Below, piece after piece: positions 6,430-27,508 of a stretch of DNA of 56,981 bases; the stretch's first letter is position 1; each line of letters begins with the position of its first letter. Origin of the DNA: Spirochaetota bacterium (lineage in GTDB: Bacteria; Spirochaetota; UBA4802; JAFGDQ01); assembly GCA_034190085.1 (NCBI GenBank), contig JAXHTS010000040.1, forward strand, positions 1 to 56,981, given 5' to 3'. The position numbers and the translations under genes are program-made. The notes beneath the pieces are model-generated. The model worked only from the letters and a program-made list of their open reading frames with translations. It was not told where the DNA came from and made no database searches.

Positions 6430-7425
6430 ATGAAAAAGATTGCTTTAATAGCAATGATTGGCTTTATAGCTGTTGCGATGGTTGGGTATTTTGCAAATCA
6501 GGCAATGGCTGGTGTTGGTGGTGTTTGCAGTAATTGTCATACCATGCACAATAGTCAGGGTGGCGTTCCTGTGGATGCTGATGGGCCGAACGAGGTCTTG
6601 CTGAATAATGATTGTATAGGATGTCATACTAGCGCGGCTAGTGATCCTTTGGATGATGTCAATAATACTCCCTTTGTAATGCTCAGTGGGGCTAGTGATG
6701 ATAACTGCTTAGCTGGCGGATTCTTCACGACTGCAAATCCCCTTGACGATAACGGCAACAATACACATGATATCGGCGCAACGGCTGATCCTGCCGGATT
6801 TAATTCAGCAGAAACTCCTTGGTATACTGGCAATACAGGTGATGGTCTGGGTTGTGCTGGAACTAATGGTTGTCATGGAAACCAGACTGATCTGAATGAT
6901 ATGGCAGCAATTGCTGGAGGTCATCATAATACATCGCTGGCTTATCGCATGCTCTACATTGGAACTGCTGGTGTTCTTGGGACACCTGCGAGTGACTACG
7001 AAGAGGCGTTGATTGGAACTGGTGGTGTAGTTACTGATCCACACAATGTCTATAGCGCTGGTGTTTTGGACCCAAGCATCAGTGAATTGTGCGCCAAATG
7101 TCATGGAGATTTCCATAATGAGAGTGGAACAACAGAAGATTGTGGAGCTGCCAGCCCATGGATTAGACACCCCACAGATGTTGATATTCCAGGAACATGG
7201 GCAATCGGAGATGAAACCAATGACTTAACCCGAAGTGATTATAAGAACAATCCAGTTGGCTTTGTAGGCGGTACTGAGACTGGAGAGCGTCGTGCTACAT
7301 GTCTTTCCTGTCATAGAGCACACGGCACAGCAAATAATGATCTTTTAAGATGGGATTACGGCACACAGGTTGCTGCTGGTGGAAATGCATATGGCTGTCT
7401 TGGCTGTCATGATGCACAGAGATAA
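6430..7425 (+). CDS. OmcS/OmcE-like extracellular hexaheme cytochrome c, paralogue 1
   Basis: A 331-residue exported cytochrome. The signal peptide ends at NQAMA (residue 27). Heme sites: CSNCH (33-37), CIGCH (62-66), CX5CH at 142-149, CAKCH (221-225), CLSCH (291-295) and CLGCH (323-327). The order of motifs, with HTMHNSQGG after heme 1, IRHPTD, CLSCHRAHG and a final CxxCH, follows the filament-forming Geobacter cytochrome OmcS one for one, which also has six hemes. The third site has five residues between the cysteines instead of two. GGAGGT lies 6 bases before the ATG. It is the first and shortest of a tandem family (7519, 8712, 10326, 13019). An extracellular electron-carrying role is inferred; filament formation is not shown. 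Confidence 0.85.
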   Translation: MKKIALIAMIGFIAVAMVGYFANQAMAGVGGVCSNCHTMHNSQGGVPVDADGPNEVLLNNDCIGCHTSAASDPLDDVNNTPFVMLSGASDDNCLAGGFFTTANPLDDNGNNTHDIGATADPAGFNSAETPWYTGNTGDGLGCAGTNGCHGNQTDLNDMAAIAGGHHNTSLAYRMLYIGTAGVLGTPASDYEEALIGTGGVVTDPHNVYSAGVLDPSISELCAKCHGDFHNESGTTEDCGAASPWIRHPTDVDIPGTWAIGDETNDLTRSDYKNNPVGFVGGTETGERRATCLSCHRAHGTANNDLLRWDYGTQVAAGGNAYGCLGCHDAQR

Positions 7426-7438
7426 GTAGATAAGAGAA

Positions 7439-7485
7439 ACAAGGGAAGGGGGTGGGAAGCTCAACCCTGTCCCCTTTTCCTGTTG
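7439..7485 (+). other. strong intergenic RNA hairpin
   Basis: The bases GGGAAGGGG at 7443-7451 and GGG at 7454-7456 pair with CCC at 7465-7467 and CCCCTTTTCC at 7471-7480 around an 8-base loop with a small internal loop. No T-run follows, so it is not a classic terminator. It sits between the first two cytochrome genes and may partially terminate transcription or protect the upstream transcript end, allowing different levels of paralogues 1 and 2. Confidence 0.5.
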
Positions 7486-7518
7486 TTGATTAAATTCTGA
7501 AATAACAGGATTATTAAG

Positions 7519-8670
7519 ATGAAAAAAGACGTTAAACATTCGGTTTCTGTTTTTTTCATCTTTGCTCTATCGATAGCCATTATTTGTATAATGCCTGGCT
7601 ATGTTCAGGCAAGGGTATCTGGAGAGTGCGTTAATTGTCATACTATGCACAATTCTCAAGGCGGAGACGATGTTGATGGTGACGGCCCTTACTCTTCTTT
7701 GCTTACAACAGACTGTGTGGGCTGTCATTCCTCCGCCGTCTTCACCACCTATTATGATCTGGGCGGATGTAATGTCCCGGTAGTGCTCTTTACCGGGGGT
7801 GAGCCTGCCACATATCTTGCGGGAGGCAATTTTTACTGGGTAAAAGAGGGGTTAGGTGGTGATGATACTAAAGGGCATAATGTATTCTTGGGTGAAGATG
7901 ACGATAATTTATCTGAAGCTCCTGGTGGTTTCCCAACAGGATGTGTTGATAGTTGTCATGTAAATTTGAGTCAACCCTTCCCTGATCCAGGTTTTTCTTA
8001 TGGTGATATTAATGGCAAATATGGTTGTCAGGGGTGTCATGTAAACCCAAGGCATCATGCAAATGATCACGATAATGGCGTTTCAGGTTTAGTTGATGGT
8101 GGAGATATGGGCTGGTATCGTTTTTTATCAGCTCATCAACCCGATGATTTTGGTGTAAAAGGCTTTGAAGATGGTGATTGGGAGGCGGGTCATCCAAACC
8201 ATTTGCCAGGCACAAGCGCACACAATGAATATAGGGGTGATCCTGCTTCTCATTATGGGATACACGCTTCTGACAGGGGTGACATTTCTGGCTTCTGTAC
8301 TGGTTGTCATGCATATTATTCCAGCGCATATGCATTTGATGACATACAGGGACAGAAGAATAGCCATGGCAATTGGATACGGCACCCATCGGATAGCGTT
8401 ATTCCAGATGATGGTGAATATGCGGATGTTGGAGGAGTCAGCCATCTCTATGATCCCCTTTCGCCTGTTGGCAAACCTTCTATAGACAGCACACCTGATA
8501 CAACTGTTACACCAGGGGCAGATATGGTTATGTGCATTAGCTGTCATAGGCCCCATGGAAGCCCTTATGCGGATATGTTGAGGTGGGATTATACTGAACA
8601 GGTTGCTGGTGGCGGAGGTTTGACAGATGATCAAGGCTGTTTTTATTGTCACACACTAAAGAATGAATAA
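7519..8670 (+). CDS. OmcS/OmcE-like extracellular heptaheme cytochrome c, paralogue 2
   Basis: A 383-residue exported cytochrome; the signal peptide ends near VQA (residue 31). Heme sites: CVNCH (37-41), CVGCH (66-70), CX3CH (142-147, CVDSCH), CQGCH (170-174), CTGCH (260-264), CISCH (339-343) and CFYCH (374-378). The family core is complete: LAGGNFYWV, KGHNV, APGG, GWYRFL, HNEY, IRHPSD, GEYA and LRWDY. Compared with paralogue 1 it has one more heme, placed just after the third. The third site again departs from CXXCH, here with three intervening residues. Histidines in HNEY, RHP and the KGHN motif are good candidates for distal heme ligands, by analogy with OmcS. AGGA lies 8 bases before the ATG. 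Confidence 0.85.
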   Translation: MKKDVKHSVSVFFIFALSIAIICIMPGYVQARVSGECVNCHTMHNSQGGDDVDGDGPYSSLLTTDCVGCHSSAVFTTYYDLGGCNVPVVLFTGGEPATYLAGGNFYWVKEGLGGDDTKGHNVFLGEDDDNLSEAPGGFPTGCVDSCHVNLSQPFPDPGFSYGDINGKYGCQGCHVNPRHHANDHDNGVSGLVDGGDMGWYRFLSAHQPDDFGVKGFEDGDWEAGHPNHLPGTSAHNEYRGDPASHYGIHASDRGDISGFCTGCHAYYSSAYAFDDIQGQKNSHGNWIRHPSDSVIPDDGEYADVGGVSHLYDPLSPVGKPSIDSTPDTTVTPGADMVMCISCHRPHGSPYADMLRWDYTEQVAGGGGLTDDQGCFYCHTLKNE

Positions 8671-8711: not shown

Positions 8712-9857
8712 ATGATCGTGAAAATGAATAAAAAAAGAATGTTTTTAATTCCATGTATAGCTGGTTTTGTGTTTGTTTTTGTGGGGTACATGGCTGATGT
8801 GTCATTTGCTACGATAAGCGGCGAATGTTCCAACTGTCACACAATGCACAACAGCCAGGGTAGATCTCCGATGGCTACATATGGCGATCCTAGTGAGCCC
8901 TGGACCGGCGAAGGTCCTTATAGCTTGCTTACTCGCGGTGACTGTTTGGGATGTCATGGTATGGGAACTGGCAATAGAATTGAAACCATAAACGGTAGTG
9001 ATATTCCTCAAGTCTATCATCAAGATATTGTAGACCTTGCTGGAGGAAATTTTGCCTATATCACTGGTGTAAAGGGAAGCGGCGCATCGGATGCCAAGGG
9101 GCATAATGTAATTGATCTTGGCCCTGGCAGGCTTGAAGGAACAATACTCGAGGATCCCCCAGGGGGACATGGGCCTAATCCCAACATCTTCACTTGTGCC
9201 GGTCATGGAGGTTGTCATGGATACCGTAACGATGAAAGTGGGCTAGCGTCACTCAAAGGCGCTCATCATCGAAATGTTGATGGCAAATGCGACATCGCTG
9301 ATGAAGTGTACAACAGCTATCGCTTTCTCAAATATATCAAGGGATTGGAAAATCCGATTGATGATTGGGAGAATGTTAATAGCACAAGCCATAATGAATA
9401 TTATGGCGAAACCACTCCCGCTTTGAGTAATTTTCCAAACCCATGCTCATCCTGTCATGATATGGGTAATGAAGAACTTAGACCACCAAGTAGTACCATA
9501 AGCGGATTCTGCGCGTCTTGTCACGGAAATTTTCATGCTGTATCAGGGATAGGCGGGGATTCTGTTTCACCCTTTACAAGGCATCCAACAGACATTGTCC
9601 TGAAGGGCACCGGAGAATATGCAGCTTATACAAATTACAATGTGATAGCGCCGGTTGGGAGAACCACTGTTCCAGACACGCCAAGTGATACTGTTACTCC
9701 CGGGACGGATGTTGTCACGTGTTTGTCCTGTCATGGCGCTCATGCCACAGATTATCCTGATCTTTTGAGATGGGATTATACTGGAATGATAGCTGGAGGC
9801 GGTGGCGATGATGGTAATGGTTGTTTTGTCTGTCATACAACTAAAGATGATAGCTAA
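8712..9857 (+). CDS. OmcS/OmcE-like extracellular heptaheme cytochrome c, paralogue 3
   Basis: A 381-residue exported cytochrome with a signal peptide ending near SFA. Heme sites: CSNCH (39-43), CLGCH (78-82), CX5CH (162-169), CSSCH (245-249), CASCH (267-271), CLSCH (337-341) and CFVCH (371-375). Core motifs LAGGNF, KGHNV, SYRFL, HNEY, TRHPTD, GEYA and LRWDY are kept. The extra heme relative to paralogue 1 is in a different place from that of paralogues 2 and 5 (just before CASCH). The start is uncertain: GGAG at 8706 is only 2 bases from the ATG at 8712 but 8 bases from a GTG at 8718, which is the better start by spacing. Confidence 0.83.
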   Translation: MIVKMNKKRMFLIPCIAGFVFVFVGYMADVSFATISGECSNCHTMHNSQGRSPMATYGDPSEPWTGEGPYSLLTRGDCLGCHGMGTGNRIETINGSDIPQVYHQDIVDLAGGNFAYITGVKGSGASDAKGHNVIDLGPGRLEGTILEDPPGGHGPNPNIFTCAGHGGCHGYRNDESGLASLKGAHHRNVDGKCDIADEVYNSYRFLKYIKGLENPIDDWENVNSTSHNEYYGETTPALSNFPNPCSSCHDMGNEELRPPSSTISGFCASCHGNFHAVSGIGGDSVSPFTRHPTDIVLKGTGEYAAYTNYNVIAPVGRTTVPDTPSDTVTPGTDVVTCLSCHGAHATDYPDLLRWDYTGMIAGGGGDDGNGCFVCHTTKDDS

Positions 9858-11791: not shown

Positions 11792-12862
11792 ATGTTTCGT
11801 ATATTGATGAAATCGATAATTGCTGTTTTAATTCTACTAGGGGGTTATTTCTTCCTACCAGCAAGTGAAGAGATCAATACATCCAAATCTGTAACTATAA
11901 TTGAGAAGGATGAGGGAGGCGGGAATCTCTCGGATGAGGACAAAACTAATTCATCTATTTCTATTCGCGACAATCAGGAAGAGGAAGAGGTTAGGAAACC
12001 CATCACTAAGGGAAAGTCAATCCCACCCAAATGTGTCTATATCATCCATGAGGATGAGGATGGCAAAAGACTCACCTTCCCATCATCTGTTTTTTTTGAG
12101 ACAGTAAAAAATGAAATATATCTGATTGATTCCGGGAATAGTAGAATTCTTATCTATACCTTTGATTTTTTTCATCTATATACTATCGATAAGGATGATG
12201 GCATTTTTGCCCCAACCTGTATGACCGTTGATCCTGATGGTTATCTCTTTGTGGGTCAGTCCCGGGACTCTACAAATTCCAGGGCGCGAATTTCTGTCTT
12301 TAATCCTTGCCTTAAGTGGGAAAGGAATATATATTTTGGAGGATTTATAGGGGCAGAGAAATTTGTTCCAAAAAATATCGCGCTTGATGATGAAGGCAAT
12401 ATTTATTTAGCAGGGACCAATCATTTGGGGATTGTTGTTTTGGATAAAGGGGGCGCTTATCAGAATACGTTTATGCCTGAGAGAATAGCTATCTGTGATG
12501 TGGAAATAGATGAAAAGGGAAATATTTATCTTCTCAGTGAGGAATGGGGAAAGGTATATATTTATGATAAGAGTGGTGGATTGGTTGTAGAATTTGGAGA
12601 AAAGGGAGGGGGTTCAGGCAAGTTGAGCCGTCCACGAGGCTTTTCTGTAGATGCTAGTAGGGGCAGGGTTTATGTCATTGACTATATGAGGCATACTGCT
12701 AATGTTTACGATACTAACGGAAGTTATCTCTTTGAATTTGGTGGCAAGGGATGGGGAAAGGGGTGGTTCCAGTTCCCTAGTGATATCTGTATTGATCGAA
12801 AGGGTCATGTGCTTATTGCAGATACCTTTAATAATCGTGTGCAGGTTCTGGAAATTAAATAA
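11792..12862 (+). CDS. secreted NHL-repeat beta-propeller protein
   Basis: A 356-residue protein with an uncleaved anchor or signal peptide (residues 5-24), a charged low-complexity linker to about residue 75 rich in Asp, Glu and Ser, and then a six-bladed NHL-type propeller. Blade signatures are visible as repeats of FVGQSRD, NIYLAGTNH, NIYLLSEEW, VYVIDYM and VLIADTFNNRVQVLE. Such propellers bind proteins or carbohydrates, and NHL proteins commonly accompany OmcS/OmcE-type genes. The linker would hold the propeller away from the membrane. A second NHL protein closes the locus at 26576. No enzyme motif is seen; a scaffold or anchoring role is an inference from context. Confidence 0.8.
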   Translation: MFRILMKSIIAVLILLGGYFFLPASEEINTSKSVTIIEKDEGGGNLSDEDKTNSSISIRDNQEEEEVRKPITKGKSIPPKCVYIIHEDEDGKRLTFPSSVFFETVKNEIYLIDSGNSRILIYTFDFFHLYTIDKDDGIFAPTCMTVDPDGYLFVGQSRDSTNSRARISVFNPCLKWERNIYFGGFIGAEKFVPKNIALDDEGNIYLAGTNHLGIVVLDKGGAYQNTFMPERIAICDVEIDEKGNIYLLSEEWGKVYIYDKSGGLVVEFGEKGGGSGKLSRPRGFSVDASRGRVYVIDYMRHTANVYDTNGSYLFEFGGKGWGKGWFQFPSDICIDRKGHVLIADTFNNRVQVLEIK

Positions 12863-13018: not shown

Positions 13019-14113
13019 ATGAAGAAAATTATAGCACACATATTCGTAATATCCCTATTATTCCTAATTCCGCTTACAAGTGATTCATATTGCGAGGTTA
13101 AAGGGAATTGCAGTAACTGTCATACAATGCATCGAAGTCAGAATCCTTGGCCCTGGGATATGAATTGGGGAGGGCCTAGCTCAGCTCCAATAGAGAATCT
13201 CTTGGTTGCTGATTGTATAGGGTGTCATACCAATTATACAGATGGATCGCCCACCATTACCCTGATCACAGGCAGCGTCACTGTCACAGTGCCTGTTGTA
13301 TATAATACTGTTGTTCCCCCTAGTGCTACATTAGCTGGTGGAAATTTCTATTGGGTGGCTCATGATGACGATACAAAAGGACATAATGTGCTGGGTATAT
13401 CTGGAATGGATGCGAATTTAAGCCAAGCGCCGGGAAATGCTAATAGCTGTTCAAATAGTTGCCATTATTCCTTGGCAGTAGAACAGACTGCTTTACCCCT
13501 GCTAGGGAGCGGTTGCAAGGGCTGCCATCTTCATCCGAGTCATCATGCCGATGATCAGGGCCCTGTTATAGATAATAATCCTGATGGAGAGGGCTGGTAT
13601 CGTTTTTTATCCGGACATTTCACTGGGGAGGGTCACGGAGTGACTGGAATTGAGGATAATGACTGGCATGCGACCAAAAGTGTGAGCGATCATAATGAGT
13701 ATCTTGGATATGATGGCGGGCATGATGCAGTAGGTGCGTTTAATGAATTGGGTAATACAATGAGCGCTTTCTGTTGTGGCTGTCATGGAAATTTTCATCA
13801 GGAGCGTGACTCATTTAACTGGATACGTCATGCCTCTGATACTATTATACCCAACTCGGGAGAATATGCTAATGCCTTTGGGGCTCAAGGATCAGGAACA
13901 GGTGCATATAATCCAGATATTCCAGTGGCGCGTCCTGAATTGACCGGATGGACCGGGGCAAGCGTTGAGGTATCTCTGGGCGCCGGGGGGGATCTGGTAA
14001 TGTGCCTTTCCTGCCACCGGGCGCACGGTTCTCCATATTTTAAGCTTTTGCGCTGGGATTATCGTGGTAATGATTGGTCAGGTTGCGGAACCTGCCATAC
14101 TCAAAAACAATGA
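13019..14113 (+). CDS. OmcS/OmcE-like extracellular heptaheme cytochrome c, paralogue 5
   Basis: A 364-residue exported cytochrome with a signal peptide ending near SDSYC/E. Heme sites: CSNCH (31-35), CIGCH (66-70), CX3CH (144-149, CSNSCH), CKGCH (166-170), CCGCH (252-256), CLSCH (329-333) and CGTCH (356-360). The core motifs LAGGNFYWV, KGHNV, GWYRFL, HNEY, GNFH, GEYA and LRWDY align with paralogue 2, as does the placement of the seventh heme after the CX3CH site. The usual IRHPSD is IRHASD here. It is separated from paralogue 4 by the NHL protein. AGGA lies 5 bases before the ATG. The next cytochrome gene follows after 33 bases, so the two are probably one transcript. Confidence 0.85.
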   Translation: MKKIIAHIFVISLLFLIPLTSDSYCEVKGNCSNCHTMHRSQNPWPWDMNWGGPSSAPIENLLVADCIGCHTNYTDGSPTITLITGSVTVTVPVVYNTVVPPSATLAGGNFYWVAHDDDTKGHNVLGISGMDANLSQAPGNANSCSNSCHYSLAVEQTALPLLGSGCKGCHLHPSHHADDQGPVIDNNPDGEGWYRFLSGHFTGEGHGVTGIEDNDWHATKSVSDHNEYLGYDGGHDAVGAFNELGNTMSAFCCGCHGNFHQERDSFNWIRHASDTIIPNSGEYANAFGAQGSGTGAYNPDIPVARPELTGWTGASVEVSLGAGGDLVMCLSCHRAHGSPYFKLLRWDYRGNDWSGCGTCHTQKQ

Positions 14114-14146: not shown

Positions 14147-15391
14147 TTGAAAATACCAGCATCAATACTGTCACGTAACTATAGATCAATGTATATCTCT
14201 TTGGCGATTTTGAGTATTTTCATAATAATCATATGGATCAGCCATATTTATGCTGGCCCTTATGCGGATTCAGCTCACGGTAACAGCAGCTATGGGGTTA
14301 ATCGTTCTTTTATATCTTCTTTCAATTATTCAAGGGGCAACTGTGCTCACTGTCACGAACAGCATGCAAGTATTGGTGGGGCAGAGCCTGTTCCAGTCAG
14401 TGGCAATGCCAGTGAGCGGCTTCTCTTTCTCTCAGTATATAGTGGTCAAGCAGATATGTTTTGTTTTCAATGCCATCAGAGTGGATCTATACAGACGGGT
14501 ATGCCGCCGCAGTATAGTTATAGTTATAAATGGGGTGGGGATAACAGCTTAAGCTGCCCTGATTCAATCAAAGACTCCTTTACATTTATTAATGATGACG
14601 GAACTCATAATCCCAACTGTGGAAGCAATACCGGTTCTTCACATCAGCTTGCGCAGATTAAAAATTTCATTAGGAACAAGTGGGGTTTTGTAGGCAATTC
14701 TATCAATCCATGCTCAGGTTGTCATAATACTCACAGAGCACAGAGAGCCTTTTATCCTATCAATGTGGATGGAACATCTCCAATTTCCCGACCAAGCTCC
14801 CATGCCAATGACTGGGTCTTATGGGGAGACGATATCACAGAAAGAATGAGTAGTTATACCTCAAATTATCAAGCTCCATATTATTATAATTCAACTCTTA
14901 CATTTGAACCAAATGGCGATTCAACATCCGATGGATCAAATATGCCAGATTATGTTACATTTTGCACTGACTGTCATAATCCGAGCAATGATGGTCAGAT
15001 ATCCAGTTCTCAAAAGTATAGTTTTACAGGCAATTGGCAGGGAATACTTTTCAATCCGGATTGGGAGAATACGTCGCCCCATGGAAAGGTTAGCAGCAAT
15101 ATGCAGCCCATGATGATCAATAAGGCGCCCTATAATACATCAAATATCAATTACGTTCTCTCCTGCACTGACTGCCATGAGCCTCATGGCAGCCCAAATG
15201 GGATGCTCATCAGAAAGGAGGTAAATGGAGCCAGCACTGTAAGCTTTACAAGTTGGTCAAGCAGGGATGATTGGTTTTCACTATGCCGCAGGTGTCATGA
15301 CCCGATTAGCGGCCATAACTCAGGTGCCAAGGGCAATGATCCCTGCTATGTTTGTCATATGCATAATAGAAATTGGTTTAAACCCATTTAA
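14147..15391 (+). CDS. membrane-anchored or exported heptaheme cytochrome c
   Basis: A 414-residue protein that begins with TTG, supported by AAGGAGG 8 bases upstream. Residues 16-36 form a signal anchor or signal peptide ending near IYAG. Seven canonical sites are seen: CAHCH, CFQCH, CSGCH, CTDCH, CTDCH, CRRCH and CYVCH. The spacing and the CTDCHEPHGSP motif place it with doubled-CXXCH cytochromes rather than with the OmcS-like family; it lacks the HTMHNSQ and LRWDY hallmarks. Long heme-poor stretches rich in Ser, Asn and Tyr suggest an extracellular or surface protein. The stop is 2 bases before the next start, which implies co-translation with the propeller lipoprotein. Confidence 0.82.
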   Translation: MKIPASILSRNYRSMYISLAILSIFIIIIWISHIYAGPYADSAHGNSSYGVNRSFISSFNYSRGNCAHCHEQHASIGGAEPVPVSGNASERLLFLSVYSGQADMFCFQCHQSGSIQTGMPPQYSYSYKWGGDNSLSCPDSIKDSFTFINDDGTHNPNCGSNTGSSHQLAQIKNFIRNKWGFVGNSINPCSGCHNTHRAQRAFYPINVDGTSPISRPSSHANDWVLWGDDITERMSSYTSNYQAPYYYNSTLTFEPNGDSTSDGSNMPDYVTFCTDCHNPSNDGQISSSQKYSFTGNWQGILFNPDWENTSPHGKVSSNMQPMMINKAPYNTSNINYVLSCTDCHEPHGSPNGMLIRKEVNGASTVSFTSWSSRDDWFSLCRRCHDPISGHNSGAKGNDPCYVCHMHNRNWFKPI

Positions 15392-15393: not shown

Positions 15394-16794
15394 ATGAAAC
15401 ATATATTTGAAATATTATTTGTGATTTCGCTATTTAGTTTGCTAATAATAGCGGCTTGTCAATCTATTTCTATCACACACCCTCCTGCTTCTGGGGGATA
15501 TGTAAGTTTATATCTTTCCACATCCAATAAATCTCCCTCTGACATAACATTTACCCTAGAAAAGATTGAAGTGGAGGGAGAGGGTAAAGACTGGGTTACA
15601 GTATTTGAAGACAAAAGGGGGATAAACTCTATTAATCTGATGGACTGTCAGGTCTTTCTCTCGGAGATACATCTTGGAGCTGGAAAATATGAGAGGATGA
15701 GAGTAAGGGTGACGGATGCGGCTTTGGTGCGTGGTGGAAAAAAGCTATCCCTTGCGCTTCCATCTGAAAATATGGTAGTGTTGCCTGTAAGGCTTCAGAT
15801 TTACAAGAATGAGAGCACTTCTCTTTTCCTTTACTGGGATACTGAAAAATCGATAGAAAATAAATACCTTTTTTTGCCCTCATTTACACTGCTGCCACAA
15901 AAGATGGAGATAACAAGGATTATATTGTATGTTACCAATACTGATTCCAATAGTATAACAGTGATAAACCGAGAAAATGACCGGGTGGTGGGTACTATTG
16001 GTGTTGATAAGGCTCCCATGGGAATTGTCGCAAGTCCCTCAGGAGATTTAATATATGTAGCTAATTCAGGTTCAAATACCATATCCGTGATTGATACATC
16101 ACACCACAGGGTGATAGACACAGTACCTCTTAATTTTGGTCTTAGCCCTCGTGAAATCGCCATTTCTCCTAACGGCGCAAGGCTTTACGTGAGTAATTTC
16201 CACTCCAACAACGTGTCTATAGTAGACACTGTAAGTAAAAGCATTGTCGGACAGTTATCAGTTGGGAATGCCCCACTTGGCATAGCTGCCAATACAAGTG
16301 GCAATAGACTCTATGTAGCGAACAGCGTCTCAAATAATCTTTCAGTAATAGATACATACTATAATGAGGTTGTTGACACCATTGGCGTTGGTTCAAATCC
16401 CACGGATTTAATGATCGACCAGAATAAACTATTTGTCGCTAATGCCGGATCGAGTAATATCTTTCAGATCAGCGTAACTTCTCTTAGAATAGAAAAAGAG
16501 ACAATTGCCTCATATGGATCACATAAATTGGTCATGGGTTTAATGGGAAATATTTATATATCCAACATGAAAAGTAATGATATCTCAATTATACCCTCCT
16601 CTACGAATATTATTATCCAAAATATCGCAGTTGGGGATCAACCTCAAAAGATGATAGTAGATCAGAAAAGAAGAAAATTGTACGTTGCTAACGGAGGATC
16701 AGATACTGTCTCAGTAATAGATCTTGTCATCTCAAAATTGGTTGTTAGCATTCCAGTAGGGAAAAGACCTTATGGTTTGGCGCTGGTAGAATGA
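15394..16794 (+). CDS. lipoprotein with DUF4382-like and YVTN beta-propeller domains
   Basis: A 466-residue protein. The lipobox IIAAC puts the lipidated Cys near residue 23. Residues 30-165 resemble DUF4382 (SVxLYLS..., a hydrophobic beta-sandwich pattern ending in a FLPSF segment). Residues 175-466 form a YVTN/YncE-type propeller with repeated ILYVTNTDSNSITVIN-like units spaced about 42 residues. Lipidation would attach it to a membrane. DUF4382 proteins are surface or periplasmic, of unknown role; YVTN propellers often bind proteins or DNA-like ligands. Sitting between a heptaheme cytochrome and the large barrel, it may be a scaffold for the outer-membrane complex. That role is inferred. 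Confidence 0.8.
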   Translation: MKHIFEILFVISLFSLLIIAACQSISITHPPASGGYVSLYLSTSNKSPSDITFTLEKIEVEGEGKDWVTVFEDKRGINSINLMDCQVFLSEIHLGAGKYERMRVRVTDAALVRGGKKLSLALPSENMVVLPVRLQIYKNESTSLFLYWDTEKSIENKYLFLPSFTLLPQKMEITRIILYVTNTDSNSITVINRENDRVVGTIGVDKAPMGIVASPSGDLIYVANSGSNTISVIDTSHHRVIDTVPLNFGLSPREIAISPNGARLYVSNFHSNNVSIVDTVSKSIVGQLSVGNAPLGIAANTSGNRLYVANSVSNNLSVIDTYYNEVVDTIGVGSNPTDLMIDQNKLFVANAGSSNIFQISVTSLRIEKETIASYGSHKLVMGLMGNIYISNMKSNDISIIPSSTNIIIQNIAVGDQPQKMIVDQKRRKLYVANGGSDTVSVIDLVISKLVVSIPVGKRPYGLALVE

Positions 16795-16812
16795 GAATAT
16801 ATGGTGTAATTG

Positions 16813-18954: not shown

Positions 18955-19513
18955 CAGGGGAGGAATACTCTGGCTCTTTATTTTGCTTCTCATAATTAAT
19001 TGCGCAGGGCCTCGCATGTATGTTCAACCCGATGCTGACTTTACCTATATTAAAAAGGTGGCTGTTTTACCCTTCGATAATTTGACCGGTGATAAGTTTG
19101 CTGGAGATAAGGTAAGGGATTTAGTAACAACTGATATATTGAGTCGAGGTATATTTGATGTGATAGAGGAGGGCGAGGTCCATAGGGTGCTGAAAGAGGA
19201 GGGGAAGGCTTCCGCCACAGCAATTGATCAGGAAGCTGGTAAGAGGATCGGAAAGAGGCTAGGGATTCAGTCCTTCATTTTGGGTTCAGTTGAGGAGTAC
19301 GGGATCTCACAAGGAGGAGGGCGAGCATTCTCACAGGTGGCGATCTCTATGAGAATGATAGATGCCGGCACCAGCAAAATATTGTGGCAGGCGAGTTATG
19401 ACAAAGAGGGGGGTGGCGCGCTGAGTCGGTTGTTTGGTATCGGATCGAAGACCATCAGCGAGATATCAAGGGATTTGATAGAAGAGATATTGGACACACT
19501 CTTTGAAGATTAA
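18911..19513 (+). CDS. CsgG-like lipoprotein
   Basis: A 200-residue protein with a hydrophobic N-terminus and lipobox LIINC. The mature part has the CsgG/TolB-N-like fold signature: KKVAVLPFDNLTGDKFAGD, a conserved TTDILSRGIFDVIEEGEV stretch, and later MRMIDAGTSKILWQASY. In curli systems CsgG forms the outer-membrane export pore for amyloid subunits. It starts within the end of the barrel gene, in another frame, which suggests coupled expression. Its length is shorter than E. coli CsgG (277 residues), and I cannot see whether the transmembrane hairpins are present, so a pore is not assured. A GNA1162-type peptidoglycan- or LPS-associated role is the main alternative. Confidence 0.72.
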   Translation: MKPGCFTRVFLLGFSRGGILWLFILLLIINCAGPRMYVQPDADFTYIKKVAVLPFDNLTGDKFAGDKVRDLVTTDILSRGIFDVIEEGEVHRVLKEEGKASATAIDQEAGKRIGKRLGIQSFILGSVEEYGISQGGGRAFSQVAISMRMIDAGTSKILWQASYDKEGGGALSRLFGIGSKTISEISRDLIEEILDTLFED

Positions 19514-19524
19514 TTAAAATATTC

Positions 19525-21081
19525 ATGAAAAGAAAAAATAATTTATATGTCATCTTTATTCTAATCTCAAGCATGACAATATGGTTTGTTAACAAAAATG
19601 CTTTTTGCCTGGAGACTAAACCCCCTAAGGAGATGAGCCAAATCTCAAAAAAGGGTATTAGAAGGGTAGCAGTTCTACCACTGGTGAATTTGAGTGGAAG
19701 CGATGTTGCTGCCCCTGATGTGATTGCAATGATAGAGAATTATCTTAGCAGTAAGATGAATATTGAGGTTGTTCCTCGGGAAATTGTGAAAAAATTTTTG
19801 GTGAAGGAAAGGATTAGAGGTATTGGCCTTTTAAGCAGGGCCACTTCTCGAACAATAAGTAATACTCTTAAAGTGGATGGTATTATTCTTACATGCGTTA
19901 ACCTTTTAACCGCAGAGGATAATCCTATGATAGGGATTGGATGTCGAATGATTAATGGCCGAGATGGATCACTGATCTGGTACAATCATGCATCACTTGC
20001 CGGAAGAGATTATACATCCTGGTTTGGATTGATTCGAGTTACCTCCTTGGAGGTTCTGACAACAAGGGCAGTTGAAAGATTGCTTTCTACATTTCCTAAA
20101 GATGTAATAATTATGCAGGAGGATATTGACTCCTTTGAGATTACAGAAATTTCCGCAAATCCTAAGTATCTTCATTCCCATGAAAAAATTATTCTTCGTG
20201 TCAAATTTGTATCCATGGGAAAGACGATAAAGAGGGTTAATGCGATACTGGATAAGAATAGGGGTTCCCTCGTTTCAGAAGAGGAATTGGTATATAGTGG
20301 GACAATGACGGCTCCAAGTAAGGAAGGCAAGTATCAGTTAAACCTTGAGGTTTATGATGAAGGGAATAATGTCTCTATCATCAATTCAGTAGCTATTATT
20401 CGGGTGGATAATACTCCCCCAAGTGTAGCGCTCTATTCTCGGGATGAACTCTTCTCCCCCAATGGAGATAGGATAAAGGATATGATTGTCTTTTCTACTT
20501 ATCTTAGAGAAGCGGATAATATTGATAGTTGGGAATTCATTGTTCAGAATAGTGAAGATGAGATAATAAGGAGGGCCAGTGGGAGGGATCGCCTGGCTAC
20601 ATCTTTGGTATGGAGGGGGGAGGATGACTCTTATTCGTCAGCGGGTGATGGTGAATACTACTGTAGCTTGAAAGTGATTGATCGAGCGGGCAATAAATCC
20701 AAGACTCCCAGAAAGAGATTAGTCCTGGATAAAACGCCTCCCAAGGTTCAGATTAAAATTGATTTGAAGGAAGAGGAGGGTTTCCAATTCTATTTAGAGT
20801 GTGAAGATGCTAATGGTATAGATAGATGGCAGTTGGATATATTTGATGAAGATCAGAGAATTGTTCAATCCTTCGAAGGTGAGGGAAGAGTGCCTGCCAA
20901 TCTCTGGTGGAAGACATCAACATCCCCTCATATTGAATCGCGTTACTCCTTTACGGCTAGGGATTTGGCAGGAAACAGATTAGCTCAATCCGCTCGACCT
21001 ATAAAGGCAGATTTTTTGATAAAGGAAGTAACCCCTTCCAATAAGGAAGAAAAGAGAAAAGAGTGGAATTCTGATTTTTAA
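19525..21081 (+). CDS. exported CsgG/TolB-N-like protein with Ig-like C-terminal domains
   Basis: A 518-residue protein with a signal peptide (residues 8-30). Residues 45-195 repeat the CsgG-type fold (RRVAVLPLVNLSG, then VDGIILTCVNLL and GCRMINGRDGSLIWY). The rest is built of Ig-like beta-sandwiches; FSPNGDRIKD at about residue 311 is the signature of FlgD/CHU-type Ig domains common in surface or gliding-associated proteins. There is no lipobox. It follows its CsgG-like neighbour by 11 bases and probably forms a complex with it. The combination of a pore-like module and long Ig domains suggests a periplasm-spanning assembly factor, but this is inference. Confidence 0.7.
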   Translation: MKRKNNLYVIFILISSMTIWFVNKNAFCLETKPPKEMSQISKKGIRRVAVLPLVNLSGSDVAAPDVIAMIENYLSSKMNIEVVPREIVKKFLVKERIRGIGLLSRATSRTISNTLKVDGIILTCVNLLTAEDNPMIGIGCRMINGRDGSLIWYNHASLAGRDYTSWFGLIRVTSLEVLTTRAVERLLSTFPKDVIIMQEDIDSFEITEISANPKYLHSHEKIILRVKFVSMGKTIKRVNAILDKNRGSLVSEEELVYSGTMTAPSKEGKYQLNLEVYDEGNNVSIINSVAIIRVDNTPPSVALYSRDELFSPNGDRIKDMIVFSTYLREADNIDSWEFIVQNSEDEIIRRASGRDRLATSLVWRGEDDSYSSAGDGEYYCSLKVIDRAGNKSKTPRKRLVLDKTPPKVQIKIDLKEEEGFQFYLECEDANGIDRWQLDIFDEDQRIVQSFEGEGRVPANLWWKTSTSPHIESRYSFTARDLAGNRLAQSARPIKADFLIKEVTPSNKEEKRKEWNSDF

Positions 21082-21307: not shown

Positions 21308-21880
21308 ATGAGGCTACAACTTTTAGTTATTCATGTTATACTATTCCTGTCGTGTTCCTCCAATCCACATTATTTTTTGAGGGATGGGAAAAAATTCCCT
21401 CTGATTATGAAGGTTGCAGTATTGCCCTTTAAAAATATCACTACCCAGAGGGGAGCGGGAAAGGTGGTAACCAATATTTTTATACAGGAGTTGTTCAATA
21501 GCAGAATCTATAAAATAGAGGAGATGGGGATCATCCGAGATTTCTTTATAAGGCAGAGGATAAGGGAGAAGGGTGAGATTGATCTGGATACCGCTAATTT
21601 GTTGGGATCTCAGATTGATGTTGATGCCGTTTTCCTTGGAATAGTAGAGGAATATTACCAGGATGCTGGTGGTAAAGAAGGGATTAGCCCTAGGGTGGGC
21701 TTGAGTGTTCGAATGTTAAGCACCAAGACTGGGATGATACTCTGGAAGTGTTCTCATCAGAGGACAGGAGATGATTATAAAATTATCCTCGATTGGGGTA
21801 AGGTTAGGACTGTAAATTTACTTGCCAAAAAGGTGATTGAGGAAATGATCGCAACAATAAGGAAACATGGGAAAGAGTAA
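21308..21880 (+). CDS. small CsgG/GNA1162-like lipoprotein
   Basis: A 190-residue lipoprotein with lipobox LFLSC (Cys near residue 16). The mature sequence has MKVAVLPFKNITTQRGAG and later VGLSVRMLSTKTGMILWKC, matching the CsgG/GNA1162 fold of the two upstream proteins. It is the third such protein in the locus. Its last bases overlap the start of the PpiC gene by 14, so the two are translationally coupled. The function is not known; a role in outer-membrane secretion or assembly is suggested by the fold and context. Confidence 0.7.
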   Translation: MRLQLLVIHVILFLSCSSNPHYFLRDGKKFPLIMKVAVLPFKNITTQRGAGKVVTNIFIQELFNSRIYKIEEMGIIRDFFIRQRIREKGEIDLDTANLLGSQIDVDAVFLGIVEEYYQDAGGKEGISPRVGLSVRMLSTKTGMILWKCSHQRTGDDYKIILDWGKVRTVNLLAKKVIEEMIATIRKHGKE

Positions 21881-23267
21881 AATGAAAAGATATTTATCTA
21901 TTTTAATTATTTTAATAATGTGTTTTATTTGTGGAAAAGCCTTTAGCTGGTTTTGGGGAGAGGATTATTTGGCGAAGGTAAACCAGGAGACTATTTACAT
22001 AGAAGACTTTCAGAAACGCTTGAGCGAACTCCATCGTCAGGGTTCCATGCAACGGTCTAAAGGGAGGGCTGCTCAAATTGATTTGAGAGTCGCCCTTGAG
22101 GAGATGATCGATGATTATCTCTTATACCAGGAGGGCTATCGATCTGGGCTGGACAAGGATCCGGAATTTATAAGAAGGTCAAATGCTTATCTTGAGTTTC
22201 AATCCATTCTCAGGCTCAGGAGGGAAGAGATAAAGGATAACATTAAAGTTGAGGAGGATGAGATCAAGGCATTTTATGAGGAGAATTACAAAAAATCTGG
22301 GCAGGAAGGAAAAACGCCCCCGAATTATGTAAAGGTGAAGGGTAAGATAAAAAAGAAGATTTATAAAACAAAGGAGAAGGAACTGGAAAGGCAGTATATA
22401 AATAAATTAAAGGAGAATGCCAAGATTGAGATTTATACAGATGTTCTTTCCTCTCTTGGGAATACTAAGAAGGATGGGAAAAGAGTAGTCGCTTCTATTA
22501 ATGGAAAGCCCGTTTTGGTTTCAGATTTGGAAAAGGAATATGGAAAGTCAATCCAGGGCAAGAAGGAAGAGGAAGCGAAAAAGATAAGGAAGAAGGCATT
22601 GGATGGATTGATAGAATATCTTCTCATTAAAGAGGATGCCTTAAATCATAATTATCCCCAAGAAGATCCTCCCTTCGGAAAGATGATAGCCCAATACCGT
22701 ATTCGGCTGATGAATTTTATATTTAATACAAGGATTATTTCTCCTCAAATAAGGGTTACAGAGGAGGATTTAAAGGAATATTATAAGAAGAATAAGGAAA
22801 AGCACAGGTTGCCGGATCGCTTTAAGTTGAAAATAATTAGCCTTAAAGATGAAAAAGAGGCCAATAAACTTCATAAGGAGTTGGAAGCGGGCGCAAACTT
22901 CAATCGATTGGCACGATCTGCCTCTGATAGTATGCAAGGGGATAATAGCACGAATACTTCATGGTGGTATAATAGGAATTTGTCTGATCCGATAAGAAGC
23001 GTGGTAGAAGGGATGAAGGTGGGGGATATATCTAGGGTAATTAAAGACCGTTCATTTTACAAAATAGTGAAACTGGTTGATCTTAAGAAGGGAGCAATTA
23101 TAAATTACCCTAAGGTAAAGGGGATGATAAAGACCAAGCTGGGAAGGGAAAAGTTTCAATCCCTGTTGAATAAATATCTTAAGATGATGAGAGAGAACTC
23201 ATCAATTAAGATAAATGAAGATGTTCTCAAAAATTATGAAATGAAGGTAAAAAATGAGCGTAAATAA
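21867..23267 (+). CDS. exported PpiC/SurA-type peptidyl-prolyl isomerase
   Basis: A 466-residue periplasmic foldase with an N-terminal signal (an ATG at 21882 is an alternative start). Two SurA-N-like helical arms are seen at residues about 30-180 and 205-290, the second with INGKPVLVSDLEKEYG. A parvulin domain follows at about 310-420: FKLKIISL, a FNRLARSASDS helix and a conserved VGDISRVIKD segment. Such proteins fold outer-membrane barrels or secreted proteins. PpiC-type genes are recurrent neighbours of multiheme cytochrome clusters, so its client may be the barrel or the cytochromes. The charged Lys/Glu-rich middle is unusual but common in A+T-rich genomes. It overlaps the 26-heme gene by 14 bases. 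Confidence 0.82.
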   Translation: MGKSKMKRYLSILIILIMCFICGKAFSWFWGEDYLAKVNQETIYIEDFQKRLSELHRQGSMQRSKGRAAQIDLRVALEEMIDDYLLYQEGYRSGLDKDPEFIRRSNAYLEFQSILRLRREEIKDNIKVEEDEIKAFYEENYKKSGQEGKTPPNYVKVKGKIKKKIYKTKEKELERQYINKLKENAKIEIYTDVLSSLGNTKKDGKRVVASINGKPVLVSDLEKEYGKSIQGKKEEEAKKIRKKALDGLIEYLLIKEDALNHNYPQEDPPFGKMIAQYRIRLMNFIFNTRIISPQIRVTEEDLKEYYKKNKEKHRLPDRFKLKIISLKDEKEANKLHKELEAGANFNRLARSASDSMQGDNSTNTSWWYNRNLSDPIRSVVEGMKVGDISRVIKDRSFYKIVKLVDLKKGAIINYPKVKGMIKTKLGREKFQSLLNKYLKMMRENSSIKINEDVLKNYEMKVKNERK

Positions 23268-25203
23268 ACGTTTAGTATCAGGAATTCTCTTCTCATTTCT
23301 TTTCCTTATTGTAAGTTGTACTACTGGACCACCCTCCAGTCGATTCGCATCAAAAACATGTATCGACTGTCATCAAGACAAATTGGCTAAACTCAAACAG
23401 GGAAATATACACAGACCGGTTGATAAGAACGAGTGTGAACAATGCCATAGGCCTCATGGCATTATTGGAGCGGCTTACCTGAAGAAAGATGAAAATACCC
23501 TCTGCTTTGATTGTCATAAACGTGAAACAATAATTGATAAACATGTGCATTCTGCTCTGAATAAGGGTAAATGTATTGATTGTCATAAACCACATTCTTC
23601 ACCTCATTCATTTTTATTAAAAGAGGAGGGGAATAAGCTCTGTCATTTATGCCATAATAAAGAAATGTTCAGTAGAAAAAAGGTACATGAACCGTCAGCC
23701 AAAAACTGCATCACATGTCATAAGCCTCACTCATCTCCTAATAGGTATCAACTTGTTGATCCGGAGGATAAGGCTTGTTTGAAATGTCATGATATTGTTA
23801 AAAGGGAATTTGCGCGTGCTCATTCAGACTATCCAGTGAAGGGGAAGACCTGCACCGACTGCCATACCCCTCATTCCTCTTCCAATGATAATCTTTTGAG
23901 GGAGGTTGCCCATTCCCCAATGAAATCCATAAAGTGTGACTCTTGTCATAATCCTGCGGATTCTCAAGAACCCTTAAAGGTGAAGGAAACGGGAAGTAGA
24001 ATCTGCTATCCGTGTCATGATAAAGGAAAATTCAAGGATTCGCATATCCACAGCCCTGTTGATGATGGAGAGTGCCTATCATGTCATAAACCCCATGCCA
24101 GCGATTATACAGGCATGACTGTATTGGAGAATGAGAGGCTATGCTATTCCTGTCACGATGACAAGGAAGATGAATTTAAGAAGAGACATCCTCACGCGCC
24201 TATAAAAGATGGGAACTGTCTGGGTTGTCATAATCCTCACGCTTCGTCTTTTAAATCAATACTTAAGGCAAAGGGCGGGGCTCTCTGTTATAAATGCCAT
24301 GATAAGAAAAGTTTTAAGGGAATCTTCACTCATCAGCCGATTGTTTCAGGGAATTGCTTAGAATGTCATGATTCTCATGGCTCAAACTTAAAATTTATTT
24401 TAAAATCATCGCAGAAAGAACTCTGTTATGGCTGTCATAAGGATGAAAAGAAGGATTTTGACAGGGTAAATGCGCATACACCTGTGAGAAAGGGGAATTG
24501 TTCCGGTTGTCACAATCCTCATGCCTCTTCACAGAAAGACCTGTTGATTCAGGATAAAAAATCCATCTGTTGGAATTGTCATAATTCCATGAGGGAAGAG
24601 TTGAAAGAAGGAATTATGCATCCTCCCTTTAAAACTGAAAAATGTATGCATTGTCACCAACCTCATGCCAGTAACCACGACTTCCAATTGAGTGAGGAAG
24701 AGAAGGGTTTGTGTGTTGGCTGTCATCCTAAAGTTAAAGACGGAATGAATAAAGGCAAGTATATCCATTCACCCCTGAAAGAGGGGAAGTGTGTAGTCTG
24801 TCACAATCCTCATGGCAGTAAAATTAAGGGACAGCTTGTAAGACCATTGAAGCAGGTTTGCCTTTCCTGTCATATTGAAATTGAAAAGGAATTTGAAAAG
24901 GAATATGTCCATCCGGTTGCACAAGAGGGCAAGTGTTTAACATGTCATCTCCCACATTTCGCTGAGCTCAATGGTTTGCTGGTAAAGATCGGCGCGGTTC
25001 TTTGCGGGGATTGTCATGACATAAAAGACGTGAATTTAATTGATAAACATCACAGGATATCATTAACAAGTAGCAACTGCGCTGACTGTCACGAAGCCCA
25101 TGGTTCTCAGCATAAAAATCTTTTTCATAAGAATATCCATTCACCCTTTGGAGAAAAATTATGCAGTAAATGTCATAAACCTAAGGAAAAGACAGGAAAG
25201 TGA
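23254..25203 (+). CDS. 26-heme cytochrome c lipoprotein
   Basis: A 649-residue lipoprotein (lipobox LIVSC, Cys22). I count 26 canonical CXXCH sites, all CX2CH, from CIDCH at residue 36 to CSKCH near the C-terminus. They alternate with a period of about 45 residues in pairs: one site followed by PHASS or PHGS, then one followed by DK or NK and a downstream HSP/HAP. This is the doubled-CXXCH pattern (PF09699-type), giving bis-His pairs along the chain. It is almost all hemes and linkers, so it could make a long electron wire tethered by its lipid. Length suggests it can span the periplasm or reach outward from the surface. It is coupled to its neighbours by overlaps (14 bases upstream; GTGA downstream). 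Confidence 0.9.
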   Translation: MSVNKRLVSGILFSFLFLIVSCTTGPPSSRFASKTCIDCHQDKLAKLKQGNIHRPVDKNECEQCHRPHGIIGAAYLKKDENTLCFDCHKRETIIDKHVHSALNKGKCIDCHKPHSSPHSFLLKEEGNKLCHLCHNKEMFSRKKVHEPSAKNCITCHKPHSSPNRYQLVDPEDKACLKCHDIVKREFARAHSDYPVKGKTCTDCHTPHSSSNDNLLREVAHSPMKSIKCDSCHNPADSQEPLKVKETGSRICYPCHDKGKFKDSHIHSPVDDGECLSCHKPHASDYTGMTVLENERLCYSCHDDKEDEFKKRHPHAPIKDGNCLGCHNPHASSFKSILKAKGGALCYKCHDKKSFKGIFTHQPIVSGNCLECHDSHGSNLKFILKSSQKELCYGCHKDEKKDFDRVNAHTPVRKGNCSGCHNPHASSQKDLLIQDKKSICWNCHNSMREELKEGIMHPPFKTEKCMHCHQPHASNHDFQLSEEEKGLCVGCHPKVKDGMNKGKYIHSPLKEGKCVVCHNPHGSKIKGQLVRPLKQVCLSCHIEIEKEFEKEYVHPVAQEGKCLTCHLPHFAELNGLLVKIGAVLCGDCHDIKDVNLIDKHHRISLTSSNCADCHEAHGSQHKNLFHKNIHSPFGEKLCSKCHKPKEKTGK

Positions 25204-25205
25204 TC

Positions 25206-26459
25206 ATGAAAAAATATAAATACTATTTTACATCGATATTGATTATTACCACTGCCGTCTTTACATTTTCTGTCAGAGGCGTCAACTCTGAGGCAGGAAG
25301 GGATGAAGGTCGGATATGTTATCAATGTCATCCTGAAGTCAAAAAGGCCGTATTTTCTCAATCCGCTCATCTCCCAGCAAAAAAGGGGGATTGTGTAAAA
25401 TGTCATAATCCACACACATCAAATTATGATAATTTTCTTTTAGAGGAAGGCGGCAATTTATGCTTCCAGTGTCACCAGGAAAAGAGGAAGGAGTTTCATA
25501 CAAGTTATATGCATCTTCCGGTTAGTAAAGGGGAATGTGTTAAATGCCATAATCCCCATGCTTCAAAGAATCAGAAGCTCTTAAGTACAGGTAGTAATGA
25601 TATCTGTTTCCAGTGCCATAAAAAGGAGAAGATATTTTCCCGGAAGAATATTCACGAACCACTAAATGAGGGCAACTGCCTGGAATGCCATAACCCGCAT
25701 GCTTCAGAAGAAGAATTTCTGCTGGTTAGAAACAGCAGAGCGATTTGTCAGGATTGTCATTCCTCCGGTGACGAGGATTTGCGTAAGGCCCATAGGGATT
25801 CAATATCTGATGATACTAACTGCCTGGGCTGTCATAATCCTCATTCCTCCAACCACGATGCGCTGGGGAGAGAGTTCTCTCATAAACCCTTTGATGACAA
25901 TGATTGTGAGGACTGTCACACCTCTAATGGAAACAGGATAACCATGACGATGAATAAAAATGGGAAGGCCCTCTGCTTTGATTGTCATGAGGAGATGGAG
26001 AAAAAATTTCAGAAGGTCTATAGTCACCTTCAGGGATATAGAGATAATGCTTGTCTGGAATGTCATAATCCTCACGCCTCTGATGATAAGGGTTTAAAGA
26101 GGGCGAGGGATGAGAAGATATGCTACTCCTGTCATGCTGATACTAAAAGGCGTGTGAAGGGAAATGATCCGATGTATAAATATAAACATCCTGACATTGA
26201 ACGGTGTACAAGTTGTCATAATCCTCATGGAAGCAACTACAGACTGCTCTTGAAGTCTGATGAGAATGCTTCCTGTGAGGTATGCCATGAGACCCAGGGA
26301 AAGTTTACTCATCCTGTAGGAGCTAAGGTTATTGACCCACGATCGAAAAGGGATGTTAACTGTGTAACATGTCATAATCCCATGGGATCAGAGGATGAAT
26401 ACTGCGTTAGATTCGGCCGTAAAAAGAAATTATGCATTCAGTGCCATAGATATAGATAG
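25206..26459 (+). CDS. 16-heme exported cytochrome c
   Basis: A 418-residue protein with a signal peptide (cleaved near VNSEA) and no lipobox. I count 16 CXXCH sites in the same alternating arrangement as the 26-heme lipoprotein, with repeated CxxCHNPHAS motifs. The two genes probably share origin by duplication. An ATG at 25206 with AGGA about 8 bases before it is preferred to the GTG at 25200, although that GTG overlaps the previous stop. Sitting at the end of the coupled run of export genes, it is a candidate soluble periplasmic partner of the lipoprotein. The final CIQCH is followed by only three residues. Confidence 0.87.
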   Translation: MKKYKYYFTSILIITTAVFTFSVRGVNSEAGRDEGRICYQCHPEVKKAVFSQSAHLPAKKGDCVKCHNPHTSNYDNFLLEEGGNLCFQCHQEKRKEFHTSYMHLPVSKGECVKCHNPHASKNQKLLSTGSNDICFQCHKKEKIFSRKNIHEPLNEGNCLECHNPHASEEEFLLVRNSRAICQDCHSSGDEDLRKAHRDSISDDTNCLGCHNPHSSNHDALGREFSHKPFDDNDCEDCHTSNGNRITMTMNKNGKALCFDCHEEMEKKFQKVYSHLQGYRDNACLECHNPHASDDKGLKRARDEKICYSCHADTKRRVKGNDPMYKYKHPDIERCTSCHNPHGSNYRLLLKSDENASCEVCHETQGKFTHPVGAKVIDPRSKRDVNCVTCHNPMGSEDEYCVRFGRKKKLCIQCHRYR

Positions 26460-26575
26460 TGTTTTGCAAGCCATGATTGATTTAGTAAAATATTCTGGAA
26501 TACATGCATAATTATTCTATCTCTACATATCAAAATGGAGTAGTATCAGTATTTTAATTATAAGAGGAAAGGAAT

Positions 26576-27508
26576 GTGAAAAAGATAAGGATATGGTTTT
26601 TTATAGGTAAATTGAAGATTTTCTTTTTTTTAATACTTCTAGACATGTCTTTTATTGTTAAGGGTGAGATCTATGCCGGGGAGACCTTGAGGTTTATCGC
26701 TACAATACATGGCGATGAGGTTTCTAAACCATTCAACCAACCATGTGGTTTTTTTTATGATGAGTCAAGGAAGAGAATTTATATAGCAGATACCAGGAAT
26801 AACCGTTTGGTGTCCTATGATTCGCAATTTACATTTTTATCTGAATTTAGCGCAGAGGGAAAGCTGGAATTGCCAACGAGTTTGGTAAGGGATAGGAGAG
26901 GCAGACTGATAGTAACTGAAAGTAAAAAAAATCAGGTAACCCTAATAGACATTAAGAATAAAAAATACGATCCCCTGGATTTTTCAAAGGTGCCTACAGG
27001 TGATCCGGTTGTGCCTGGAAATCTGGCTATTGATAAAAAAAATCAACTTTACGTTGTAGATCGAGCCAATAAAAGGATCCTTGTATTCAATGAGAGTGGC
27101 AAATACATTCGAGGGATTACAATCAAAGAGGGCCTTGGTGGTTTTAACGATGTTAAGGTAGGCGAGGATGGCAATATTTATGCTATTGATACCCTAAAGG
27201 GTCGGGTTTATATCTTTAATCAGGAGGGAAAACTCCTTAGAAAATTTGGTGAAAGGAATAAAGGGGAAGGAAAGTTTGATTTTCCCGTAAGTTTGGCAGT
27301 TGATCGAAGGGGTCTGGTCTATGTGATTGATAGACATAAGAACCGTCTTCTGGTTTATAATCAAAAAGGGGATTATATTGAGGGCTACTCTCAGATTGGT
27401 TGGAAGGAGGGTAGATTTTATTATCCTACATATATCTTTATTGATCAATCGCAGCGGATATTTATAATTGATAGGGATAATAATAGAATACAGGTCTACA
27501 AAAGATAG
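26576..27508 (+). CDS. secreted NHL-repeat beta-propeller protein
   Basis: A 310-residue protein that starts at GTG, with GAGGAAAGG 3-8 bases upstream. The signal peptide or anchor covers residues 14-34. The remainder is a six-bladed NHL propeller: repeated NRLVSYD, LYVVDRANKRILVFN, IYAIDTLKGRVYIFN and VYVIDRHKNRLLVYN units about 45 residues apart. Unlike the NHL protein at 11792 it lacks the acidic linker. It ends the locus. NHL propellers near OmcS-type cytochromes are thought to act outside the cell, but the role is unknown. Downstream there are only 70 bases before a convergent gene. Confidence 0.8.
   Translation: MKKIRIWFFIGKLKIFFFLILLDMSFIVKGEIYAGETLRFIATIHGDEVSKPFNQPCGFFYDESRKRIYIADTRNNRLVSYDSQFTFLSEFSAEGKLELPTSLVRDRRGRLIVTESKKNQVTLIDIKNKKYDPLDFSKVPTGDPVVPGNLAIDKKNQLYVVDRANKRILVFNESGKYIRGITIKEGLGGFNDVKVGEDGNIYAIDTLKGRVYIFNQEGKLLRKFGERNKGEGKFDFPVSLAVDRRGLVYVIDRHKNRLLVYNQKGDYIEGYSQIGWKEGRFYYPTYIFIDQSQRIFIIDRDNNRIQVYKR

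Follow-up and report, generated by a model that had tools for sequence, protein, structure and literature searches.

Genes of the OmcS-family locus

The window analysed here, a stretch of 56,981 nucleotides (contig JAXHTS010000040.1 of the Spirochaetota assembly GCA_034190085.1), carries between positions 6430 and 27508 of its plus strand a locus of multihaem cytochromes related to OmcS, the nanowire protein of Geobacter, with a series of companion genes downstream (Table 1). A first-pass annotation, made from the sequence alone, had proposed four intact cytochromes and one decayed copy at this place, and all five were found as described; a whole-genome search located the OmcS-family copies of the 4.27 Mb genome in these five genes only. 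The decayed copy, Omc4, has an in-frame TAA at position 10974 and changes of frame around its CLSCH motif, and haem-binding histidines are lost where CXXCH has become CVACY and CFICY. The four-way alignment of the intact proteins Omc1, Omc2, Omc3 and Omc5 showed that CXXCHTMH, DCxGCH, LAGG, RH, CxSCHxxH and LRWDY are invariant. The motifs quoted in the annotation as being shared with OmcS were present in the order given, with two corrections: KGHN occurs in three of the four intact proteins, NGNN taking its place in Omc1, and LRWDY is a motif of the cytochrome family of the window that is absent from OmcS itself. The motif pattern and the gene arrangement at the locus are together well beyond chance.

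The results of Pfam and NCBIfam searches, motif counts and AlphaFold2 modelling supported the assignment of the companions as NHL and YVTN propellers, an outer-membrane barrel, CsgG-like proteins, a PpiC-type protein and long haem-chain proteins; all are encoded on the same strand as the cytochromes. The three CsgG/TolB-like proteins announced earlier do contain CsgG-like domains, but the middle one turned out to be half of a split OscG and to bear Ig-like repeats. Overlapping reading frames were also recovered, at four gene pairs (OscE/OscF, 44 bases; OscG part 2/OscH, 14; OscH/OscI, 14; OscI/OscJ, 4), the lengths of the overlaps resting on mechanically assigned start codons. Directly upstream of the cytochromes, positions 4986-5717 encode an exported protein of 243 amino acids, for which no Pfam match was obtained at E 0.01.

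Table 1. Genes of the OmcS-family locus, with their positions in the window and the features behind each assignment
Gene	Position	Strand	Features
Omc1	6430-7425	+	OmcS-family cytochrome; 5 CXXCH and one CX5CH (CAGTNGCH); member of the family profile matching OmcS
Omc2	7519-8670	+	OmcS-family cytochrome; 6 CXXCH and one CX3CH (CVDSCH)
Omc3	8712-9857	+	OmcS-family cytochrome; 6 CXXCH and one CX5CH (CAGHGGCH)
Omc4	10326-~11480	+	Decayed OmcS-family copy
NHL-repeat propeller 1	11792-12862	+	Pfam NHL E=1.1e-17; NHL gene also upstream of omcS in Geobacter relatives (L082, L084, L085)
Omc5	13019-14113	+	OmcS-family cytochrome; 6 CXXCH and one CX3CH; occupies the OmcS/OscC position
MHC7	14147-15391	+	Cytochrome with 7 CXXCH, between Omc5 and OscD
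OscD homologue	15394-16794	+	YVTN beta-propeller, lipoprotein-like start; Geobacter-type counterpart E=1.8e-42
OscE (OetI) homologue	16810-18954	+	Large outer-membrane beta-barrel with discoidin-like insert; Geobacter-type counterpart E=2.5e-8
OscF homologue	18911-19513	+	CsgG/LpoB-like; Pfam LpoB E=2.7e-7, CsgG E=5e-6; Geobacter-type counterpart E=7.7e-33
OscG part 1	19525-21081	+	CsgG/TolB-like domain, then Ig-like (Big_3) repeats; Big_3_2 E=3.6e-8; domain 1 of tandem OscG, independent E (iE)=1.6e-15
OscG part 2	21308-21880	+	CsgG-like; domain 2 of tandem OscG, iE=1.2e-19
OscH homologue	21867-23267	+	SurA/PpiC-type prolyl isomerase chaperone; Rotamase_2 E=7.3e-15; Geobacter-type counterpart E=9.4e-26
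OscI homologue	23254-25203	+	26 CXXCH, lipobox-like start; 26-haem Geobacter-type counterpart E=1.2e-139
OscJ homologue	25200-26459	+	16 CXXCH; 15/16-haem Geobacter-type counterparts E=8.5e-71, 2.2e-77
OscK homologue, NHL propeller 2	26576-27508	+	Pfam NHL E=4.7e-24; Geobacter-type counterpart E=1.5e-30

Relationship of the cytochromes to OmcS

As a single query, Omc2 matched OmcS (PDB 6EF8) with an E value of 3e-6, and the single-sequence search with Omc1 gave no match. With a profile built from the four window proteins, the match to OmcS was at E=3.7e-14, and a profile of 100 relatives reached E=1.7e-25 over profile positions 4-313 of 334, with OmcS as the sole nanowire protein matched and nitrite reductases (5e-5) as the next-best matches. 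No OmcE chain appeared among the matches of the 100-relative profile up to E=0.01, or up to E=1 with the four-sequence profile, and membership of the OmcE family was rejected on this ground. Thus, of the designation OmcS/OmcE-like given in the annotation, the first part holds and the second does not; it had been allowed for that profile searches could place the paralogues outside both families, and the family profile placed them with OmcS. Pfam and NCBIfam yielded only generic doubled-CXXCH or weak partial matches, and no curated family name was adopted for the cytochromes.

The CXXCHTMH motif is essentially invariant in 120 aligned family members (two rows of this alignment being off-target long cytochromes), and its histidine (H44), which is itself invariant, aligns with residue 16 of the OmcS chain, which we take to be the inter-subunit ligand histidine of OmcS. 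One of the twelve axial histidines of OmcS is supplied by the neighbouring molecule (PMC6584659). The likeness to the OmcS nanowire (PDB 6EF8, 6NEF) extends over nearly the whole chain at the profile level, and includes CXXCHTMHNS with the aligned histidine 16, KGHN, RHP and CLSCHRAH. On the other side, OmcS has six CXXCH haems (PMC6584659), whereas the window proteins have an additional or altered third haem motif. Judged by their sequences, Omc1, Omc2, Omc3 and Omc5 are relatives of OmcS and not OmcS itself, because they carry six or seven haem motifs, one of them non-canonical, against exactly six CXXCH motifs.

The third haem site of the family follows the second one and precedes the CXGCH at about residue 260, and its spacing is variable, reading CX5CH in 64 of the 120 rows and mainly CX2CH, CX3CH or CX4CH in the rest, often followed by one more CXXCH. 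Longer CXnCH spacings bind haem in some other cytochromes. Because both cysteines and the histidine of the third site are conserved, haem is probably bound there in all spacings. Counted in this way, the haem sites number six in Omc1, as in OmcS, and seven in Omc2, Omc3 and Omc5. Eight more columns hold a histidine in at least 88% of the rows, which is enough for bis-histidine ligation of seven haems. This raises the design question of whether the wire tolerates any spacing from CX2CH to CX5CH at the third site.

Correspondence with the osc operon

The osc operon, with omcS, omcT and oscC, reportedly has its primary description in Shen et al. (2025, Cell Chem Biol). An eight-gene block of Geobacter sulfurreducens (GSU2500-GSU2493), located downstream of GSU2501, is tied to the maturation and secretion of OmcS nanowires in one report (PMC12977616), and for the osc (omcS-companion) block another proposes roles in folding (OscH), secretion (OscE, OscF and OscG) and morphology (OscD) (PMC13194489). 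The window locus is gene-for-gene colinear with the Geobacter operon, and a nanowire locus equipped with export and assembly genes of its own, as the annotation had suggested, is its best reading; the idea of export and assembly genes has already been published for Geobacter, and the system is a known one rather than a new one. The comparison was made directly on Geobacter-type relatives, namely two loci with a 72-73% OmcS (G076 and G033) and a third locus (G086), and the results revealed the same order as in the window, running from NHL through OmcS-type cytochromes, YVTN, barrel, CsgG, OscG, PpiC, 26-haem and 16-haem proteins to NHL; in G086, the barrel gene was not detected at the threshold used. 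When the window proteins were searched by tblastn on 77 named loci, this order was found to recur in Desulfobacterota and Nitrospirota, with a colinear block in about 25 loci of these groups besides the Geobacter-type ones, so that the gene order which the annotation had proposed to seek in other genomes is indeed shared.

Unlike the operon of G. sulfurreducens, the window has a split OscG with Ig-like repeats, an extra cytochrome with seven CXXCH motifs (MHC7), four divergent subunits of six or seven haems with a CX3CH or CX5CH site, and a spirochaete host. OscG of the Geobacter-type loci contains two CsgG-like domains in tandem in one chain, whereas the window encodes two separate proteins, the first with the Ig-like repeats. 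Since OscG part 1 of this type is likewise found in several Desulfobacterota loci, the split is, on these comparisons, a lineage feature and not unique to the window, and it raises the question of whether OscG needs both CsgG-like domains in one chain. MHC7 accompanies Omc genes in many non-Geobacter loci and is absent from the three Geobacter-type loci. It may be the Apc2a cytochrome of PMC10553843, the locus L007 of genome C00003106 carrying both Omc5 and MHC7.

A tree built from four concatenated companions placed the window on a deep branch without a close sister, in the half holding Desulfobacterales and Desulfofervidaceae, and no sampled locus shares more than 36% identity with the companion proteins; no recent donor was found among the sampled loci. 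A quick cytochrome tree grouped each paralogue with kin in other genomes, Omc1 being nearest to the Desulfobacterales locus L003 and Omc5 to L007 of Seep-SRB1g C00003106, and Omc2 is 69% identical to one copy in L001. Local duplication was rejected as the source of the paralogues, and they diverged before their arrival, because each has its own, closer counterpart in other genomes. The fullest matching Omc array (Omc2, Omc3, Omc2, Omc1, NHL, Omc5) was observed at L001:7487-16391, in an unclassified Zodletone bacterium (Zod_Metabat.896), whose genome gave no OscE barrel match. RpoB matches in the same genome (G001:C157:7216-11154) fall in a 2,680-codon open frame, suggesting a fused rpoB-rpoC.

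Residence in a spirochaete and possible function

FlaA (PF04620), which to our knowledge is near-exclusive to spirochaetes, was found in 41 of 41 genomes of the host phylum (the host itself has three matches) and in 0 of 14 controls, and by this distribution the host is a spirochaete. RpoB was set aside for placing the host, as it showed 49-61% over the main segment to every named group and no close kin. Among 296 genomes of the phylum, the OmcS family was present in the host alone, two of the other 295 having only 47-position matches at one haem pair, and the OscE barrel was present in the host alone among 59 relatives. No paper linking spirochaetes with OmcS or nanowires was among those that a literature search listed, the phylum lists of Shen et al. 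and Baquero et al. lying outside that search.

Such an isolated occurrence would also be expected if the locus came from a Desulfobacterota or Nitrospirota organism and had entered the bin via a chimeric or misassigned contig, and the assembly is indeed fragmented, without a 16S rRNA gene. We regard this origin as very improbable. The flanking evidence comes from the right side of the locus. There, UbiD at position 29000, 1.5 kb past OscK, shares 71-73% identity with four same-order genomes and no more than 58% elsewhere, and ProRS (52838-54589), near the other end of the window, shares 65-74% with all ten same-family or same-order genomes tested and no more than 50% with any other. UbiD, UbiA, UbiX and the Mqn genes (29000-36482) constitute a futalosine-type menaquinone cluster, whose order is common to same-order spirochaetes. 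The tetranucleotide usage of positions 6000-27500 correlates with that of the host at 0.76, within the host's own range of 0.69-0.85, compared with 0.28-0.61 for the osc loci of other taxa, and the low identity of the companions to every sampled locus likewise argues against a stray contig. Given the spirochaetal ProRS and UbiD in the flank and the host-like composition, the best reading is that the locus is horizontally acquired, long-resident spirochaete DNA, and the acquisition was almost certainly from another phylum. That the locus is a decaying relic without a working system is hardly credible: a stop codon, changes of frame and the loss of haem motifs have ruined one cytochrome gene of the five, but the other fifteen genes are all open, their motifs are conserved and their spacing is mostly tight.

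A more serious alternative, though still an unlikely one, is that the companions are mainly a porin-cytochrome conduit of the OetABI kind (Murali et al.), in which OscE would hold or contact the 26- and 16-haem cytochromes and carry electrons through the outer membrane, and the extracellular Omc proteins need not polymerise. Seep-SRB1g C00003106, the genome used to define OetI, contains a single barrel match (E=1e-62), in a contig with the order OscF-OscE-OscD; we take it to be OEU57520.1 because it is the sole match in that genome, and since it is flanked by OscF and OscD, the Oet conduit cluster and osc seem to be the same operon, named independently. The OetABI/OmcX/OmcS-like cluster of the sulfate-reducing partners of anaerobic methanotrophic archaea (ANME) (PMC10553843) resembles the window in that Omc5 is nearest to a C00003106 protein and that the barrel, propeller and OscF are colinear, and differs in its host phylum and in the conduit role proposed there. 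The AlphaFold2 model of the OscE barrel (predicted local distance difference test, pLDDT, 87.4; predicted template-modelling score, pTM, 0.61) shows a signal helix and some 29 long strands; a small domain with weak Pfam likeness to F5/8 type C is inserted at about residues 258-377. Its best fold match in the PDB was MtrB (6r2q_B, E=1.1e-11), the porin of the Mtr conduit of Shewanella (6R2Q) and also a large outer-membrane barrel. However, the template-modelling (TM) score was only 0.43-0.47, with generic TonB-type barrels close behind, the barrel profile gave no match to PDB sequences, and the discoidin-like insert belongs to the window protein. Moreover, a conduit leaves unexplained the dedicated foldase, the CsgG-like proteins, the propellers and the published effects of osc genes on OmcS nanowires (PMC13194489). 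A conduit working together with filaments has been proposed (PMC10553843), and a conduit is compatible with filament formation, not exclusive of it. For the barrel itself, a role as an electron conduit is as conceivable as one in secretion.

We consider it likely, on the whole, that an osc-type locus resides in this spirochaete after horizontal acquisition and that the cell makes extracellular cytochrome filaments moving electrons out or in; expression, polymerisation, the export route and the direction of electron flow are what we infer here. In the proposed mechanism, Omc1, Omc2, Omc3 and Omc5 would be exported and their haems matured by a Ccm system, a CcmF-like haem lyase gene being present in the host genome. 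The OscH homologue would chaperone and fold the subunits, OscE, OscF and OscG would pass them across, anchor or assemble them at the outer membrane, and OscD and the NHL propellers would shape the filaments, in which the histidine after haem 1 would join each subunit to the next. Electrons would reach the outer membrane, or cross it, through the 26- and 16-haem proteins OscI and OscJ.

Several points weigh against filament formation. The Omc proteins have low sequence identity to OmcS itself. A Foldseek search of the PDB with the AlphaFold model of Omc2 (pLDDT 80.5, pTM 0.84) gave no match, OmcS included, although this null result was considered uninformative, since proteins of this kind are poor in secondary structure. 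Among OmcS and its Geobacter relatives only OmcS is known to polymerise (PMC12977616), and what OmcS filaments do physiologically in Geobacter is disputed (PMC11077965). One of the five copies has decayed. The stronger proposal, that the spirochaete builds OmcS-type nanowires, possibly as the first in its phylum, from divergent subunits, some of them seven-haem proteins with a CX3CH/CX5CH site, and with export machinery acquired complete from another phylum, is put forward tentatively, as a possibility rather than an expectation.

The real news of the locus is its spirochaete host, which was not visible to the first-pass annotation, and the interest lies in this host phylum, the transfer of a whole locus and the variable third haem site. 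The findings suggest that a group not known for wire-based electron exchange could exchange electrons with the outside via protein wires, and that a complete osc machine can move between phyla and stay an intact unit, which argues that its genes work as a set. They also point to a lineage of spirochaetes that could be used for testing extracellular electron transfer.

Elsewhere on the contig, positions 43179-46647 encode a multihaem cytochrome of the c3 type and, next to it, a [NiFe] hydrogenase, the small subunit of which starts with a Tat-like NRRDFLK signal; the two could supply the nanowire locus with electrons from the periplasm. A protein with Big_5 Ig-like domains is encoded at positions 55089-56513, on the minus strand and close to ProRS. 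Near the CcmF-like gene of the host, a second cytochrome c assembly match (L123, G000:C51:36914-37441) reads through two TGA and one TAA codons; it could represent a CcmC-like gene that is broken or frame-shifted.

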